This document shows, piece by piece, positions 52,401 through 61,930 of a stretch of 64,000 nucleotides of DNA (its first letter is position 1; each line of letters begins with the position of its first letter). The DNA comes from Cloeon dipterum (taxonomy: Eukaryota; Arthropoda; Insecta; Ephemeroptera; Baetidae): NCBI RefSeq assembly GCF_949628265.1, contig NC_088787.1, positions 11,026,501 through 11,090,500 on the forward strand, in the 5' to 3' direction. The notes under the pieces are model-generated. The model searched no databases, was not told the origin of the DNA, and worked only from the letters and a program-made list of their open reading frames with translations. Both the position numbers and the translations under genes were made by a program.

Positions 52401-55400
52401 CCGACTCTTGGTCAGGTTCAGGTAATGAGTGCCGCGCTCTTTTCGGCTATGTCAAGGGCGGCTCTGCGCTTACTCAGGAATGCCTGTCAAAAAACGCACA
52501 ATTTTTTATCCTTCTCAATATGTATGTTGATCAATATCAACAACACTGCATTTTTCTAATAGGGGGAAATTTTTGTCGCAAATAAACTGAATTCTTGTTA
52601 CAAATAATCTGGCTGGGAAATTTTTGTAAATTTAATCCTCATGAGAGCCAAGTTTTTTTTATCACAAGCACAAATATTTAGCAGATTTAAACTGGCTTAA
52701 GCGATTTTTAAGCGGCTAAAAATTGCATATTTAATCGTTCGTGATGATTGGAATCTCAGACAAAAGTAGTTGATCGCGTAAAATTTTCAACCCTGGCCAC
52801 GAGAACTTGCTCAGGCAAACAATTAATAACATTTTACATTATTGCAAGAGCAAGATGTTATTTTTTAAATTTAGCAACAAATTATCTTTAAAAATTCTGA
52901 CTGAGAAACAGATTTTGCCCAATTTCTCGAAAAAAAAAACTGAATCAATGATTTTTTTCGCTTGATTCCTTTCGTTGCGATCTATCCAATGGTTTGCGTA
53001 TTAATAGCTAATTAAGTTTCCTTCAGACAAAATAAATCATGATTTCCAATAAGGAGAGAGTGCTCGCCGCTTGATGAGCATTCAAAAACTTTTGCGCCGA
53101 TTTTCTCATAAATACGGTTTTTTAAGTGAACGTAAAAAATTGTTCAGAAATTTTCTGTACAGCTTTGCTCTAAATTTTTTGAAAAATGAAAGTACGAATT
53201 GAAAGCGATTAATAATTAATAATTGAAATTATTAAAGTCTTCAAAAAGAAGAACGTAATTCCTTTGCTTTTTTCCTTCCTGTCAATATACCAAGAACAAA
53301 TTAAAGAGTTGCAAAAATGAGAAAAATCTGGCGTGTCTGGAGTGCAAATATTTATTCATTAGCGCTTACGTAAGCCCGCATCATTACAGAAGCTGGTTTT
53401 GATGCTCAAGCACGAAAAAGGATGTTTGCTCGTTGACATTCCGAACCGCAAACAAAAAAGGCACTCTGCATTTCGAGAGCAGACGAAAGGTGGAGGGAAG
53501 GAAAAATATGGACGAATTTTAATATTTGATGCCGCAATTATCGCGTGTGCGTCACTCTCTCTCTCTCTCGGCGCATATTGTCCTTTGCACATTTTCAAGC
53601 CGGCCGACCTTGCCTGATGGCCGCCAACGACCTTGACCATCAAAAGCTCTGGAGTGAGCCAGCGAGCGTCAATTGATTGAGGCAACTGCTACTCCTCTTC
53701 CCCGTTCCTTCCGCGATTATTCTTGAGGCTAGACAAATTATTTAGGCGCCTCGCACGATCGCGGAAACATAATTTCCATTTGCCCCATTTATGGTTCATC
53801 GTTAAATACTAGGACAGATTCGAGTGGTAGAGTACCGGGATACTGTCACGTGTTTGATGTCCAAAATAATTATTAGCCAGTTTTAATTGAAAGAGCCTTG
53901 CTTTTGACCAGGGCTAGAAATTTAAATGCAAGATTTGTATAAATATCACGTCTTTTTTAAATTTATTTCTTAACTTGGATAAGCTGGTAAAAAATAATAT
54001 ATTTTATTAGGGAATCTTTCCCGCATATTTAAATTGAAGGAAATCAAATCGGTGATTTTCCAAAAATGAGATGACGCCATTACTGTTTAGAGAAACCAGC
54101 ATTACCCTAATTTAAAACTTTAGCGAGGTTGCTAATTTAGCTAATTTGATTTAGGAGTTAGAATTTTTTGTAGTATACAATTAAGGAAGAACTGTTAATG
54201 TTTTTGGTTGTGATGTGTTTTTTGCATTGTTTGATCAAAATTTGTAACGTGATGCAGCTCATGGCCCTTTAGTCTTTGGTCATTGACACCTCGATGCGCG
54301 GCTAATTAGTGAGCTGTTGACCTTTGCGTTTGGCCAGTTGCGGGCCAAAGCGGACGTCCTTTACAGTCTTAACTACGAAAAAATGAGCGCGGCCGCATTA
54401 GATTCGTCTGCTCACACAACACCACGTGTTGACCGGTTTATTGCTCTTTTGGACCAGGAAGACGGAAAAACGTGAAAATTCGCAGCGTTTCTGCCTCGAG
54501 ATGGACCCAGGAAGAATGATGATTTAATTTACAGCCTTCAAGAAAGTGATTATTTTTTGGAGAAATAGAACGGAAGGCACTACATTTGCATCAAATTTGT
54601 CATAATTTATGTATAGACTTGAAGGCTGCTACTGTTTTTTTCACTCTAAAAATCTTTTCCCCAAACAATTAATTGGAGATGCTTCTAGAAAGTCTGAGAT
54701 TTGAATTTAGGGAATTGTAGTGTATTTTTGGTAAAAATATATTTTACACCGTGAAATTTGTAAAAAAAATCGTTATTTAAATGTTAAACAATTTCAACAG
54801 AACATTATTTCTAGAAGCAAAAGTAACATAAAATTCTATCTTTCGACAAGGTTGCATTTTCACATCTGTTTGTGGTCAAAATTTTAAAATAGTAATACGT
54901 TTTTTACTATATTAGTCAACACCATATAGAGCCGATTTTCTCCTGTTGAAGAGAAGGTTAAAAAACCTATTCAACATATATTAAAAACATGGTTACATTA
55001 GCAGCACTTTTAACTGAAATTAAAGTCCACAACACATAGAGGATTCTGAATCAACGGTGGTTGAAAAAGACGACTACAACCAGTCATCAGAGTAAAAAAT
55101 ACGTAATAAAAGAGACGATATATCTTGCGAAACCCCGCCACTTCACCGCCTTGTGAGACTATAAATTCCTCTTACGAAAATTCAGAAGCAATTAACTCGA
55201 TTTCCTTTACTTCAAGCTATGTACCAAAGTGCGAAATTCTGTACATCTCGTGAACACACAAATAATTACCAAGGATTATTTTCATGGCTGCAACAACTGC
55301 TGATCGATTTAAGAGAAATTTTGTGGCAAATGACCCTTTGAGATATTTTCTTATGCGAGAGTTCAATAATTAGCTAGATTTTTCAAATTCCCTATTATTA

Positions 55401-56217
55401 TTTTTGTTTATTCCTGCAATGGATATTACAATAAATAATACATTAAATATGAAAATGTATACATTAATCGTGGTAGCGGAAAAATTGCGCAACTGTCAAC
55501 AACCAAATGCGAAGAGCAATCAATTTAACAAAATTTAAATTTATGTGTTTGTTGAGCTTTGTGCAATTTTGCCAATACCACGACGAAATATGAAAATTTA
55601 AAAGCAAGAAGTGGTGAACAGTAGTAGCAAAATAAAGCTATGTGAGTAAATTTGTCTAATATCTAGTAATGTGTTTTTTTTATAATTTTCCATAGGGAAA
55701 TAGGATTTATATACGTAAAAACTTCAATATTACTTGTTCGCAGAATCAATTGATTTAATTGATTTATATATGTTTAAAAATCTGATGAAAAAATGGCCGA
55801 TTTAACACAACAAAATAACATTTATTCCTAATAGTACAACAAGGAAACAAATTCAAAACCCACTCTCAGTCAATGGTCCGAGACCCAAAGCAGCGGGGCG
55901 CAGCTTTGAAAATTTTTTCGAAATATTATACAGCGCAAAAAGATAACAATAAAGCTCCTTGTCCACTAATGCGAATACAGGAGCGGTCAAATTCAACAAA
56001 CTGTTTTATTTCGGGTGCCTATTGCAATGCATAGGCTAATCACTGAGACCTCCACCATTAAGTTTAACTACAATCGGCAAGAATATAGCGTGACTAATTT
56101 TTCATGTGCAATTTGAATGCGTGGCGACTGTTGGAAAATAATTCCCAGTCCTTTAATCCTAAATTGCAAGGGCGGCGTGTGTTTGACGCCGCAGGTAAAA
56201 TGGAATTAATTGCGGAC
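49454..56217. other. gene-free intergenic stretch
   Basis: No exon or RNA gene was recognised. GC-richer patches occur at 50,180-50,440, 50,930-51,340, 52,080-52,470, 53,340-53,760 and 54,230-54,500. A CRE (52,139-52,146) and a family A repeat (52,940-53,115) are present. The patch at 54,280-54,360 has CTTTGGTCA and TGACCTTTG, which resemble nuclear-receptor half-sites. It may hold regulatory elements for the flanking divergent-to-tandem minus-strand genes. Confidence 0.45.
52940..53115 (+). repeat. dispersed repeat family A copy
   Basis: GCTTGATTCCTTTCGTTGCG followed by ATCTATCCAATGG, CAGACAAAATAAATC, TTTCCAATAAGGAGAGAGTG, CTCGCCGCTTGATGAGCATT and GCGCCGATTTTCTCA. It is the best partner of the copies at 800-1010 and 23,205-23,345. 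Confidence 0.8.
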
Positions 56218-59200
56218 TCACTCGATCAGGGAGAGAAGGTGGTGGATGCCGAACGGGCTCGTCCTGGCCACCCTCTCTATGGTCTCGGTTGGTTCGAGCA
56301 TCAAATTCTTGACCTTCGAGGGTCGATTATCCTCGTAGCAATCTGCTACGTAGCGACAGTAGTTGTCCCTTTCCTCGATGACCTTGCGCATCAGTTCGTC
56401 CTCCGACGAGCACAAATGGCCTTGATTCTCCTTGACGTACAGCACCATGCGGCGCCAGGCAGTCTTGCCTCTCGCTATCACCGAATGCATGTCCTTCCGC
56501 ATCTCCTGATAACTCCCGTCCTTCAGCTGAAAGCGGCATAAAATTATAAATAAGGTTTAATCCGTGATTATTTTAACGATTTATTAATATAAAAAGGATT
56601 TTTACCGTTTGGCGCGCCATTATTTATTAAGTTGTTGAGAAATAATCTTCACCTTTAACCTTAAATATTCTCTGAAAATGGGGAAAGAGCTAAAATGTAC
56701 CCAGAGAGTGCCATTTAAATTTTTGAAAAAATTCTGCTCTTAATTAAGTTTGCAATCATGCTAATCAAGCCAAGTCTCCCTATAGATAATTATAATTTAA
56801 TTCACCAGAAAATTTAGCTCATAATTCGCTCACCATTGGATAGAGCGTGACGAGGGGAATTAAAATCAAGCGAAAAAGTATTTCATAAATAATGGAAGTA
56901 CATTAGGCAAAATCGTAAATTAGTAATAAGTCAATAGCTGATTAATTTTTTATTTTTGCAAGCGATGAGAAAATCAGGTGTGAAAACAAATGCAACCCTG
57001 CAATAATATTAATTTGGAAACAGAGAGTTGGTAAAATTTCTAGTAAAGATAGTGACAAAATTCCAGATCTAAAAAAAAAATCAACAAGTGTTCAAACAGA
57101 AGGGAAAGCACCAACCTGCTTTTTCTCCAGATGAACCATCTCCCTAAGGCAGTTCTCCCTGTTGAAGATCTTGTGCATGAGGTGCAGCTGGGCCATGAGG
57201 CGGCGCGCGTGCAGCGAGTCCCAGCCGAGCTTGGCGCGGTTCGCCTTCCAGCTTGGATGCCAGCTCTGCGAGTGGAACGGGGTTTCCAGGATGAAGGCAG
57301 CCCACTTCTGCTGCACCCTTTCCAGCCTGGCGAAGAGGTCGTCATCCGAATAGTTGCTGCGCAGACCCCAAATCGAGGAGCAAATCTCGAGCTTGGGACG
57401 CAGCACGTGTATGTAGATGCGCCTCTTCATCTTGGCCGGGATCAGTTTGACCAACTCCATGTAAAGGTCCAGCGTCGGCTCGTGCTTATCGATCAGGTTG
57501 ATGACGTGTCTGTAGGGTGTCAGGTCAAACGACAGCGTCACGCCCAGGTACTCGAGGTGGCTCACGCGAGTCACCTTCGCGTCGAACATCAGGTACTCCC
57601 GCATGATCAGGTTTTCTTTCTTGAACTTATCAGGGTTGTAAAAGGTGATGACTTGCACCTTCTTCTGGTTCGCCTGTGAATGGAATTTAATTGGCCAGGG
57701 CGTTATTTAGGGCAAAGAGCACGGACCGTGACACATTTAAAATATCCATACAGTTAAAAAAAATGTGTTGAGCCTAAAGGCACAATTTTCTGGGTTAACA
57801 TTATGAGCTGCAGTGATGAGCAATCAGTTTTGACACGCACAAGTTCAAGTGCAGCATATTGTTCGCAATGACAATTTGATAAATGTTATTATGAAACACT
57901 CATAACAATTATTGTCTATTAAATTAATCAGGGCGTTGAAAAACGATGGACAATTGACAAATATCCAGTCCGTCAGTGATTCTTTTTTGCATTAATTTCT
58001 ACGAATAACCAGCATTATTTGTATAGCAGTTTTTTCATCGGATCGACCCTTTTGAGATGGGTGACCCTCTGATAGCGAACAACTCGCGGAAATTCAATTT
58101 CCCAAGAGCATGATGCGCAAGGACCTCATTGGAGGAAGCCCAGTCCAGAAAAGGAACCGTCATTGCAATGCAAGAAAATCAAATGTAGGCGCAAATAAAC
58201 TCTAACCCCAAACATCGCTTGGATTCTCACATTGCAATGTGCACGCAGTGCATGCGCTCAGCAGTAAGCCAAAAACAATTTGCTGCTTTTTTTAGAAATA
58301 TAATATCAATTTGTAGACGAAAATTTGGCAACCAAAAAAGATCAAATCTCTATTAACCAACCATAGCGTCAATCTCAGCATTCCGAGGCCATAGAAATAA
58401 ACTAAAGGAGTGCAAACCTTGAGGCCGTGGTCGTGGATATATGTTTCTAGCTGATAGAGGTCCTCCTGCAATGAGTACTGATCGTCTTTGTTCTTGATCT
58501 CCTTGTATACCAGAAGATCATCCCCGAAGCCTCGGATGCGCGACTTGTTCCTCAGCGCTTTGAAGATTGAGTTGATGTAGATCAGGAAAAGTGGATTGGT
58601 GAGGGGGCTTCCCTGCGGCAGGCCCTGGCGTAGGTCCAGAATCGGCGATACGGCGCCCTTCACCTTGACGGTCTGCGTGTGTCCGATTAGGAACGTTTTA
58701 ATGAACGCGTACACCGGCCGGTCGATAGGCAGGCACTTCAGCTTGTTCAGCAGCAGTCGGTGGTTCACGAAGTTCGTCGCGGCCTTGAGGTCGACCTTCA
58801 CGCAGTCCACTTGCGAGCCGGAACGCGTGAACAAGCTCACCTCTTCTCGGAAGCAGGCCAGTTGGCTCTCGTTGCTGAAACCCTTGCGATGACCGTGCTG
58901 CCTGCGCAGCGAGAAAAATAAATAAATGATAAGTACGAACGAAAAACTGGATAAAATGAAAATATACAGCTTGAAAATGCAGGGTTCGCAAAACACCGCA
59001 TTTTTTTCGGAAAACCTACTTGCAAAAAACTGTTTTTCCGGGGTTTTCTGCAACACATGCACTGTTACGGTAGATAAAAAATTCTCATGATGTAAGACCA
59101 AAAATAGAAATTTTACAGTATAAAAGCCAGACTTTTGTTTCACTGAAAGGCAGAAATTTTTATTAACTCTGACCATAGTAATTTTCCCAAAATTTCTGAC

Positions 59201-61416
59201 TTTTAAGCTGAGAAATATGATTCATTCAGGGTTAAAATCAGAAAAATGCAGAAAAACTCAAAACTGGTTTTATCCAGCTGGTTTTTCGTGCAAAAAACAG
59301 TGGTGTATTCTGGAAAAAAGTGGATGCTTTTAGAAAATTGACTAAAATTATTTTTCCTTTGCATAAATGTACTCATACAATTTTAAAAGAGCTCATTTTT
59401 CTCAGGTCGTCATTTCATATTCTGGGCTCCTAAGTTTGCATGCAAAAGTCATGTAACACTGTTACACATCACCAGAAGAGAAATGTACCTGGATAATTTA
59501 AATACCATTGGATAGATCACAACCAGAGGAATCAAAATCAAGCGTAAAATCGTCAAGAAAATTAACTGATTGATTTTTCAAGCAATTAAACAAAACTATA
59601 ATATCTTACTGCAGCTCGGTCCCAATTTCATTATTGCACATTGCTAATTGTAAATTCTACTTCTTTTTTAACTCAGCAAGAAGTTTTGGTCAACTCTTAC
59701 CCTTCAACTTGAAAAAGGCCTCACCTGACATGCAGGAGAAAGAGTTCCTTGAGGACATCATTGAGGTAGTCGCCAATGATGTGCTCGAGAAGCCGTCCCA
59801 GAGGCGGCGAGAGACTGATGGGCCGGTAATTGTCTTCACTGGTGACTTCTCCCTTCCCCTTGTACGCTGGAATAACAGTGCTGTGCAGCCAGTCTTCTGG
59901 AATATTCCTGCCATGGAAATATATCGTTCAGTTACATACTAAATCATCTGGTTTACACATTAAAATTTTTGTAATAATTTTGTTAAAAGCAAAATAGCAA
60001 TTATAATATAAAAGTAAACAATATGGAGTCGCACCTGGTTTTCAGAATGAGTTGATAAATTCTGTAGAGGAAAGGTGCGATGGCAGTGGCGTCAAGCTTG
60101 ATCATCTCGTTGGAAACATCGAAACTTCCATGCGACTTGTTCGATGGCAACAGAGCGATCCTCTCTTCGATCATCTGAATGTCAAGTTTAAACTCCACGC
60201 ACTGTAGAGAAACAAAACCAGAAGATGATTTATTGAAGCAATATATAATATACAACATTGAATTCTTAAAACTAAAGAAACCCGAAGATCGGGAAAACAA
60301 AGATTTTGTAATGATTGCTGGCTCATCAAAAAATATTTAAATATGTTTAAGATTAATTTGAAATTTTTAACACAAAATGTGCACAAAAAAGAACTAAAGT
60401 AAAATAAAGAACTTTAGTGTCAAGCTGCAAAGTAAGCACGTGATGAAGGATGATCTCTCTTTATTTTGCTTTGTCTGTCAACTTTTACAATTAATGAAAT
60501 GAATTTTTTGTTTCGTGAATTTAAAAGCCAAAATAAAAAACAAACCATCTCAGACAGTAGTTGTACGGTTGTGCCATATGAACAATTTCATAAACCATTA
60601 TTTATTACCAAAATTTATATTTTCCGATTAAAAAAAGTCATCCAGTTTTTGTCGAAAAAGCTCAACGGGAAAAACTAAAGTGTTAGTAAAATTTTCAGTT
60701 CTTCCTTCAGATGAAGTAAAAATTAATTATCAATGAAAATTTGAGGAATTTTAAAACCTGAAGCAAACTTAACTTCAAATATTTAACAATTAATCAAATT
60801 TCTTTATCATTTTGAATTAATGTGCGTGTCCTTAATCATGATTTTCCAAATTCAAAACATGCAAAAATAAATCCTAACCTTTTCCGGTTTGATGATTTCA
60901 ATTTGGAGAATTTCCTCATCCCTCGAGGTTGGTTGGGACCACAGCAGGTTGAAATAAGTCGCGATTTCCTGCGCATCTTTGATCACCTTGCCTTTAGGGG
61001 TGATCAGCTTGTCAATGGGCGGCTTGCCCTTCACCTCGTCGTGCAGGAACTGCACAGCCCGGTCGAACGCGTCTTCCTCATTGGGTTCCTGCTCGAACAT
61101 TCTTTTGAGGAGCTCCTGCTTCTCTTCCATATTCAGCACATGCGACTCCTTTCTGTGCCTGTAAAACACATATAACACATTTTATTTAAATTCTGCGCTG
61201 GGATCTCGCTCACTTTCTGAAGCTGGAAGGAACTGTCTTATCCACACTTCCGACAATCAACTCCTCGAGTCCTTCTTTGGCCAACTGGACCATGGTGTCT
61301 GCATCGCTTTCCCTCGAAAAGGATCTCTCCCATTCTTTGAGATTGGTCGTTAGCAGCTTTCTCAGCTTGCCCTTGTCGGCCATCGAGTACTTGTAAACTT
61401 TTGTTGGAGCAGCCAT
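56218..61416 (-). CDS. intron-containing non-LTR-type reverse transcriptase (domesticated RT candidate)
   Basis: Seven coding exons on the minus strand: 61,214-61,416; 60,879-61,158; 60,035-60,201; 59,725-59,907; 58,418-58,901; 57,116-57,673; 56,218-56,526. All introns (55, 677, 127, 823, 744 and 589 bases) have GT-AG borders and phases 2,0,2,2,0,0, giving 727 residues. Residues 1-216 resemble the linker that precedes LINE RT domains (LLPSNKSHGSFDV). Then come IPEDWLHSTVIPAYKGKGE and NYRPISLSPPLGRLLEHI (about 218-265), QHGHRKGFSNESQLACF (279-295), motif A VDLKAATNFV (catalytic D315), motif B QGLPQGSPLTNPLFLIYIN (370-388), motif C FGDD (D405, D406) and motif D LKANQKKVQVITF (438-450). A thumb-like region follows (PAKMKRRIYIHVLRPKLEI). 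There is no endonuclease domain. A recently mobile LINE would not carry six introns, so a host gene is inferred. Its function is unknown. Confidence 0.88.
56805..56880 (-). repeat. dispersed repeat family A core, inverted
   Basis: CACCATTGGATAGAGCGTGA followed by CGAGGGGAATTAAAATCAAG, the reverse complement of the family A core, in the last intron of the RT gene. Confidence 0.65.
58975..59320 (+). repeat. dispersed repeat family C copy in RT intron
   Basis: CAGGGTTCGCAAAA, TTTTTTTCGGAAAACCTACT, then TCCAGCTGGTTTTTCGTGC and AAAAAACAGTG. It parallels 3060-3380. It lies wholly in intron 4 of the RT gene; an ORF that reads through here is intronic. Confidence 0.55.
59500..59560 (-). repeat. dispersed repeat family A core, inverted
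   Basis: TACCATTGGATAGATCACAA followed by CCAGAGGAATCAAAATCAAG is an inverted family A core in intron 4 of the RT gene. Confidence 0.6.
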
Positions 61417-61841
61417 TCTTCTTTTCTATCAACATGCAGTCATTGAAATTCATAAATATTATCACGAAAGCAGGTGATAAAAAATCGAAAGAATTTGTTA
61501 CATTTAACATGAAAAATAAAAAGATCCATAAAAGTTAATTCAAAAATCGTTAACAACCTAGAATTTAAACAATATTAGTCTAATGGGCAGAATTTCAATT
61601 TGTTTGCCATCAGGGGAACATTAACGGTCACTGACCTCCTAAAAATTTATTTCTTCAATTTTAAATATTTCGGGGAGAAATTCCAGCAAACAAAGGGAAA
61701 AAATTCTTTTGGAGGTACAAAGGGTGTGCATCCGAATTTTTGAAATTCTGAAGAGAATCTCAATGATGTATTTTAAAAATAATATGAATGCCTTTTAAAT
61801 CCTTAAAATGTATATATAATAATACATATACATACCTGTAG

Positions 61842-61930
61842 TTGAAAATGAAGAGCTGAAATTTAAACGTCGCAATACGAATGCCGCCTTTGCTGCATCA
61901 ATCAACAGCAATCTCACCGTCTCATCGCAT
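61842..61930 (-). other. 5' UTR exon of the RT gene
   Basis: On the minus strand a GTATGT donor at 61,841 follows an exon-like sequence ending CAACTACAG. The next acceptor (GTTGATAG, ending at 61,426) leads nine bases before the ATG at 61,416. A spliced, non-coding leader is ordinary for a host gene and unusual for a LINE. The upstream limit is approximate. Confidence 0.45.

Follow-up and report, generated by a model that had tools for sequence, protein, structure and literature searches.

Does an intron-bearing reverse transcriptase (RT) gene on the minus strand of the mayfly Cloeon dipterum genome belong to a mobile long interspersed nuclear element (LINE), or has it been retained by the host, and what kind of strand would its product then make? 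The gene lies in a window of 64,000 bases (C2:11026501-11090500) of a genome of 190,111,064 bases in ten contigs, of which the five large ones measure 33-43 Mb. It is almost certainly a host gene and not a mobile LINE, and the best reading of its sequence is that it represents an undescribed family of LINE-derived cellular polymerases, probably catalytic and predicted to use ribonucleotides.

The gene consists of seven coding exons that join in frame across six GT-AG introns into 2,184 nucleotides encoding 727 amino acids without an internal stop (Table 1), which reproduces the coding sequence of the original prediction down to its 55-base intron. The content of guanine plus cytosine (GC) at codon positions 1, 2 and 3 is 54, 32 and 74% in the exons versus 32% GC in the introns, which is a coding signature. 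RVT_1 (residues 241-486, E 2.3e-22) is the sole Pfam family matched at E <=1, and the motifs previously described as intact were located as claimed: motif A with D315, motif B with Q374-G375, motif C as FGDD with D405/D406, and the LKANQKK block. The layout on both sides of the RT core, compared by eye with homologues, is that of CR1/Jockey-like LINEs, a label that rests on motifs, the trees containing no named reference elements. The closest solved structures by sequence are chains of LINE-1 ORF2p (E 2.8e-13 and weaker), followed by R2, and the fold of a model of P0001, the best protein match, is closest to the LINE-1 and R2 RTs.

A LINE endonuclease was not recognised, in line with the original prediction: RVT_1 stands alone in the protein, and tblastn with the N-terminal parts of 14 LINE proteins, run without a positive control and sensitive to well-kept remnants only, recognised none from position 55001 to 9.7 kb past the window end, its single match (E 0.43) lying elsewhere in the window. 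A genome search with the spliced protein, in which 61 of 340 candidates were scored, recovered the gene's own exons as five pieces of 87-99% identity and one of 73% that overran exon edges. Elsewhere the matches listed comprise 56 LINE-like places with 25-30% identity and open frames of up to 1,199 amino acids, with no close copy of the gene among them in the 190 Mb genome; the list is not exhaustive, since the neighbouring paralogue RT-B, found later, is absent from it. As the matches listed outside the locus do not exceed 30% identity, nothing points to a family of copies. With introns and no recognised endonuclease, the protein should be unable to mobilise its own gene and would have to work in trans, on cellular RNA.

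Relatives were sought in a collection of 5.8 billion proteins, in which most matches carry no source name. Three metagenome proteins, P0001, P0121 and P0122, are 57-66% identical to the gene over exon 5 and are the only members of its own clade among the protein matches listed. P0001, with 421 amino acids from a 4,463-base contig of the Joint Genome Institute (JGI), tracks the gene exon by exon, carries extra stretches at intron 2 (residues 82-100, V...Q, as expected of an unspliced GT...CAG in phase 0) and at intron 4 (residues 219-239), and diverges from the gene past the last residue of exon 5. The other two (P0121, 61%; P0122, 66%) came from a profile search with exon 5 of the gene and P0001. 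Both cover the exon end to end and have unrelated residues on either side, with R and then Q-H-G-H at the start (AG/G) and V at the end (GT), the readings that common splice sites would give; below them the profile matches drop to LINE pieces that are 29-38% identical (E 1e-11 and weaker). Since these relatives run into unrelated sequence at the exon borders of the gene, shared introns are implied. The absence of intron 3 from P0001 means either a gain or a loss of this intron in the course of family history. Two points count against the sharing of introns: it is read from protein letters and not from DNA, and on the donor side of intron 4 residues 217-221 of P0001 include an R-Q that misfits a phase-2 GT, so that a GC donor or a shifted donor is needed.

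The three metagenome proteins are likely orthologues from other species. P0001 and P0121 resemble each other at 82% and all other pairs at 57-69%, which means that two or three lineages are sampled besides that of the window, and 83 of the 161 residues of exon 5 are invariant in all four sequences. We infer that the gene has been inherited vertically in several species, and that it is transcribed and serves a role in the cell. Orthologues in named species were not found among the 120 listed of 127, the 11 and the 6 significant proteins of three protein searches, perhaps because RT-like genes are repeat-masked; viral contigs and prokaryote genome contigs gave pattern matches only (19 and 21, respectively) and no relative.

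A decaying or intron-bearing LINE copy, or LINE pieces joined by mistake, would account for the LINE-type RT and for the LINE-like matches elsewhere in the genome, some of which have long open frames, but this explanation is scarcely credible, since no close copy is listed, no endonuclease was recognised, all exons are open, and relatives have the same borders and rare motifs. Decay is further spoken against by the conserved catalytic residues and by the same unusual motifs in the orthologues, mis-modelled exons by the read-through of orthologues at introns 2, 4 and 5, and the multi-copy intronless versions that had been named as a possible refutation are not among the matches listed. On these grounds the original proposal of a host gene derived from a LINE RT is upheld.

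The proposed phylogenetic comparison with LINE RTs was also carried out. When 101 dereplicated LINE RTs are included in the tree, the gene groups with its three orthologues in a single clade (100 in the Shimodaira-Hasegawa-like approximate likelihood ratio test, SH-aLRT), whose stem measures 1.39 changes per column and lies within the CR1/Jockey-like part of the tree. A search of the genome with P0122 returned the gene itself (66%) and then a place on the minus strand at C2:11092107-11092460 (36%, E 1.9e-20), while LINE-like places among the matches listed reached at most 34% (150 of 216 candidates scored). This second place belongs to RT-B, an intron-bearing RT gene that ends about 2.4 kb from the candidate leader exon of the gene. 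Its three exons (L039 3948-3183, 2217-1812 and 1571-541), separated by GT-AG introns of phases 0 and 1, encode at least 733 amino acids, with the start exon not found. RT-B keeps the catalytic Asp and the DD, has Gly at the gate position discussed below (LDFSKAGERVVH) and YCDD in motif C, and ends in a strongly hydrophobic C-terminus (19-residue mean hydropathy 2.48), possibly a membrane anchor. The same tblastn comparison with N-terminal parts of 14 LINE proteins, again without a positive control, recognised no endonuclease at RT-B. No close copy of it is among the matches listed, where the next reach at most 35% (61 of 329 candidates scored), and no third copy was seen in the rest of the window or in the next 29.7 kb upstream.

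The kinship of RT-B and the gene is suggested by their adjacency in the genome, the GLPQGSPL of motif B that they have in common and the loss of the gate from the two of them. A more careful tree, built on 54 rows, unites RT-B with the gene clade at 100/99, and the placement of RT-B with 18 CR1-like LINEs instead is rejected by the approximately unbiased (AU) test (p-AU 0.0018), a test that shares the model's long-branch pull and used a group of 18 picked after tree inspection. The two proteins are 29% identical over 468 amino acids, no closer than RT-B is to LINEs (30-35%), and the two introns of RT-B are, by eye, at other positions than those of the gene. Because long branches are involved, a sister relation of RT-B to the gene clade is likely, not certain.

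What the protein would polymerise is suggested by one position of motif A. In RTs a bulky residue such as Phe replaces here the second Asp of viral RNA-dependent RNA polymerases (RdRps; DX4D) and clashes with the 2'-OH of a ribonucleotide (PMC4634563). The gate is F155 in the RT of Moloney murine leukaemia virus (MMLV), where F155V increases the binding and incorporation of nucleoside triphosphates (NTPs), and F534 in Bombyx R2 (PMC8857657). In the gene this position, the motif A Asp+5, is T320, which stands opposite the L1 ORF2p Phe in the alignment; a shift by misalignment was ruled out, V323 and H325 anchoring the motif without gaps. The ATN and FGDD variants had been noted before and both stand, but it had gone unrecognised that the threonine of ATN occupies the sugar gate.

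Threonine is found at the gate in the gene and all three orthologues, versus F (107) or Y (52) in 159 of 159 LINE RT rows. These rows, 33 frames of the own genome (near-copies included) and 126 database proteins, are what is left of 170 alignment rows after removal of the gene itself, five rows of orthologues (P0001 in three pieces, P0121 and P0122) and five rows with gaps or with no motif A Asp at the aligned place (P0119, which is out of register, P0130, and single pieces of P0024, P0083 and L024). With 101 dereplicated LINE rows, drawn from 130 spanning the domain, the gate is aromatic in every one and in none of the five family members including RT-B. The family departs from LINEs in its neighbouring motifs as well: motif C is FGDD in all four members, whereas the residue before DD is A in 147 of 152 other rows and never G (after exclusion of the 12 among 164 rows in which no DD could be read), and motif B reads PLTN in all four, with TN in none of the 164 other rows (3 gapped rows included). 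The three catalytic aspartates are kept in 4/4. The sequence thus combines a non-aromatic Asp+5 with an intact catalytic Asp, as in an open sugar gate.

In our view the kept RT core and its three catalytic aspartates mean that the protein is still a polymerase; judged by its sequence, it is probably catalytic and, if so, likely to have a relaxed choice of sugar. Kept catalytic residues with an opened gate make a ribonucleotide-accepting polymerase the most economical prediction. A host polymerase gene of this kind, derived from a CR1/Jockey-like LINE, is on balance the best explanation of the data as a whole.

Several observations weigh against this explanation. The rows in the gate count are relatives found by the gene and not a sample of all RTs. 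Residue D+7 is F or Y in 4/4 members, a position at which T, K, R or S prevail in LINEs, and this aromatic residue may compensate in part for the missing gate. In Bombyx R2, F534G gives less cDNA synthesis and abolishes nontemplated addition and tailing (PMC8857657), so that loss of the gate may also leave an enzyme less active. Positive-strand viral RdRps have Asp at the gate place, not Thr or Gly, in the account of PMC4634563, and the viral-type DX4D is replaced by DX4T in the gene and DX4G in RT-B.

The aromatic D+7 in particular would suit a domesticated RT that still makes DNA, with Thr as a tolerated gate, and that would copy cellular or element RNA into cDNA for defence or repair. The catalytic aspartates in 4/4 and the fold nearest to the LINE-1 and R2 RTs agree with such an enzyme. 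We consider it unlikely: because the gate is aromatic in every counted LINE RT, its loss in all five members asks for a reason, and the Gly of RT-B is the opposite of a gate. The changed flanking residues of motifs A, B and C might instead point to a protein that is domesticated and catalytically idle, serving as a decoy that binds RNA or restricts LINEs. Such a role has been hypothesised for L1TD1, itself a precedent of a host gene that stems from a LINE (PMC4161310), and CR1-like LINEs that keep long open frames occur in the genome. This is unlikely as well, since the motif A Asp and the motif C DD are kept in 4/4 members and in RT-B, unlike in the Prp8 core.

If the ribonucleotide-accepting polymerase is taken as the working model, a copy of a CR1/Jockey-like LINE would have dropped its endonuclease and gained introns, and an ancient tandem duplication would have produced the gene and RT-B. 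The RT of a mobile LINE reverse-transcribes the RNA of its element from a nick cut by the endonuclease. The host protein would instead add ribonucleotides, or both kinds, to RNA in a primer- or template-directed manner, with no target-primed integration, and its product might be RNA on RNA, an RNA tail or mixed strands. An ancient two-gene cellular RNA polymerase made from a LINE RT, which would synthesise RNA on RNA (double-stranded RNA or primers) and whose gate would have opened before or after the duplication, is a doubtful but possible extension; the RdRP family PF05183 had no match in the genome, in a search made without a eukaryotic positive control.

A role at telomeres was considered and dropped as the main reading. 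In its favour, the TTAGG repeat is reported missing in mayflies and dragonflies in one account (PMC8977481), and the genome gave no match to the telomerase families PF12009 and PF21399, although these searches had no eukaryotic positive control. Tandem TTAGG was absent from the ten contig ends read, and in the protein itself the Pfam scan matched no telomerase RNA-binding or C-terminal domain. An AT-rich degenerate satellite with periods of about 50, 106 and 146 bases was seen at L040, L041, L042, L048 and L049 (C1 start, C2 end, C5 start, C6 start and C8 start). In C1, C2 and C5 it lies at one of the two ends only, and the one end read of C3 and of C4 is free of it; its presence at one of two ends makes it probably centromeric, and it fits a centromere better than a telomere.

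The features of the locus are collected in Table 1, in which the candidate 5' untranslated region (UTR) leader exon is plausible. Two host genes in the window may serve as marks for synteny, namely ribosomal protein L35Ae (PF01247; 25075-25581, plus strand) and an exon of a photolyase/cryptochrome (PF03441; 36785-37192, plus strand).

Table 1. Features of the RT gene and its neighbour RT-B (window positions unless a contig is given).
Feature	Position	Strand	Basis
Candidate 5' UTR leader exon; CAG/GTATG donor at 61835, possible acceptor TAG at 61426	61836..61930	-	sequence only; start as set in the original prediction
Coding exon 1; ATG at 61416; putative LINE-type linker, placed after the endonuclease in mobile LINEs	61214..61416	-	in-frame splice model; linker likeness by eye
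Intron 1, 55 nt, GT-AG, phase 2	61159..61213	-	splice model
Coding exon 2	60879..61158	-	splice model
Intron 2, 677 nt, phase 0; P0001 has a read-through insert here (V...Q, fits GT...CAG)	60202..60878	-	splice model and P0001 alignment
Coding exon 3	60035..60201	-	splice model
Intron 3, 127 nt, phase 2; not present in P0001	59908..60034	-	splice model and P0001 alignment
Coding exon 4; fingers (NYRPISL block)	59725..59907	-	splice model and P0001 alignment
Intron 4, 823 nt, phase 2; acceptor position common to P0001, P0121 and P0122	58902..59724	-	splice model and protein alignments
Coding exon 5; palm with motif A (D315, gate position T320), motif B and motif C (FGDD)	58418..58901	-	splice model and alignments
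Intron 5, 744 nt, phase 0; donor position common to P0001, P0121 and P0122	57674..58417	-	splice model and protein alignments
Coding exon 6; LKANQKK block and LINE-type thumb region (by eye); no Pfam match of its own	57116..57673	-	splice model
Intron 6, 589 nt, phase 0	56527..57115	-	splice model
Coding exon 7 including stop; 102-aa C-terminal extension with no Pfam match	56218..56526	-	splice model, Pfam scan
AATAAA poly(A) signal, 207 nt 3' of the stop	56005..56010	-	sequence
RT-B, intron-bearing RT gene; stop 341 bases past the window end	C2:11090841-11094248 (L039:541-3948)	-	genome search and splice model

If this reading is true, a LINE polymerase has been retained for a host job in several species, and the change at the gate gives a sharp biochemical prediction, namely whether or not nature has made an RNA polymerase from an RT. 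To our knowledge, an RT turned toward an RNA polymerase is otherwise known as single-residue engineering (MMLV F155V), and RT-derived cellular genes are few. TERT, the RVT genes and Prp8 are known examples of domesticated RTs, and we found no description of a comparable host gene derived from a LINE RT in the open-licence literature searched. RT-like host genes may be widely overlooked if they are repeat-masked.

Among known systems, the mobile CR1/Jockey-like LINEs (P0002-P0030 and those of the same genome) are alike in the RT core and, by eye, in the layout of linker and thumb, at about 22-36% identity. They differ from the gene, which is without a recognised endonuclease, bears introns, has no close copy listed, and has changed the gate from F/Y to T and FADD to FGDD. 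Human LINE-1 ORF2p is the best solved match, both by sequence and by the fold of P0001, with 19% identity over the P0001 model; the gene shows no recognised endonuclease and has T at the gate F of L1. The RVT (rvt) genes, the nucleotide preference of whose products has reportedly been studied, are likewise domesticated, non-mobile cellular RTs. They are described as a very long branch of obscure origin with a large loop 2a insertion (PMC5718144). This insertion is missing in the gene when compared with L1 ORF2p, which speaks against membership among the RVT genes, rejected on this ground; the gene is nested among LINEs in the trees, which contain no RVT row. L1TD1 is also a host gene from a LINE; it differs in coming from ORF1 and in having no RT, being stated to show no discernible homology to ORF2, and was described in 2014 as the single domesticated gene then known to stem almost wholly from LINE-1 (both PMC4161310). 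Telomerase RT and Prp8 are RT-related cellular genes as well, but the gene has no telomerase domain in the Pfam scan and retains its aspartates, whereas the RT core of Prp8 is called non-catalytic (PMC5718144). Mycobacterial DinB2 has a Leu gate and uses ribonucleotides, and an aromatic residue put in that place squelched its RNA polymerase activity (PMC4176160). It is thus a natural polymerase clade with a non-aromatic gate, although, as a bacterial Y-family DNA polymerase, it offers an analogy of mechanism only.

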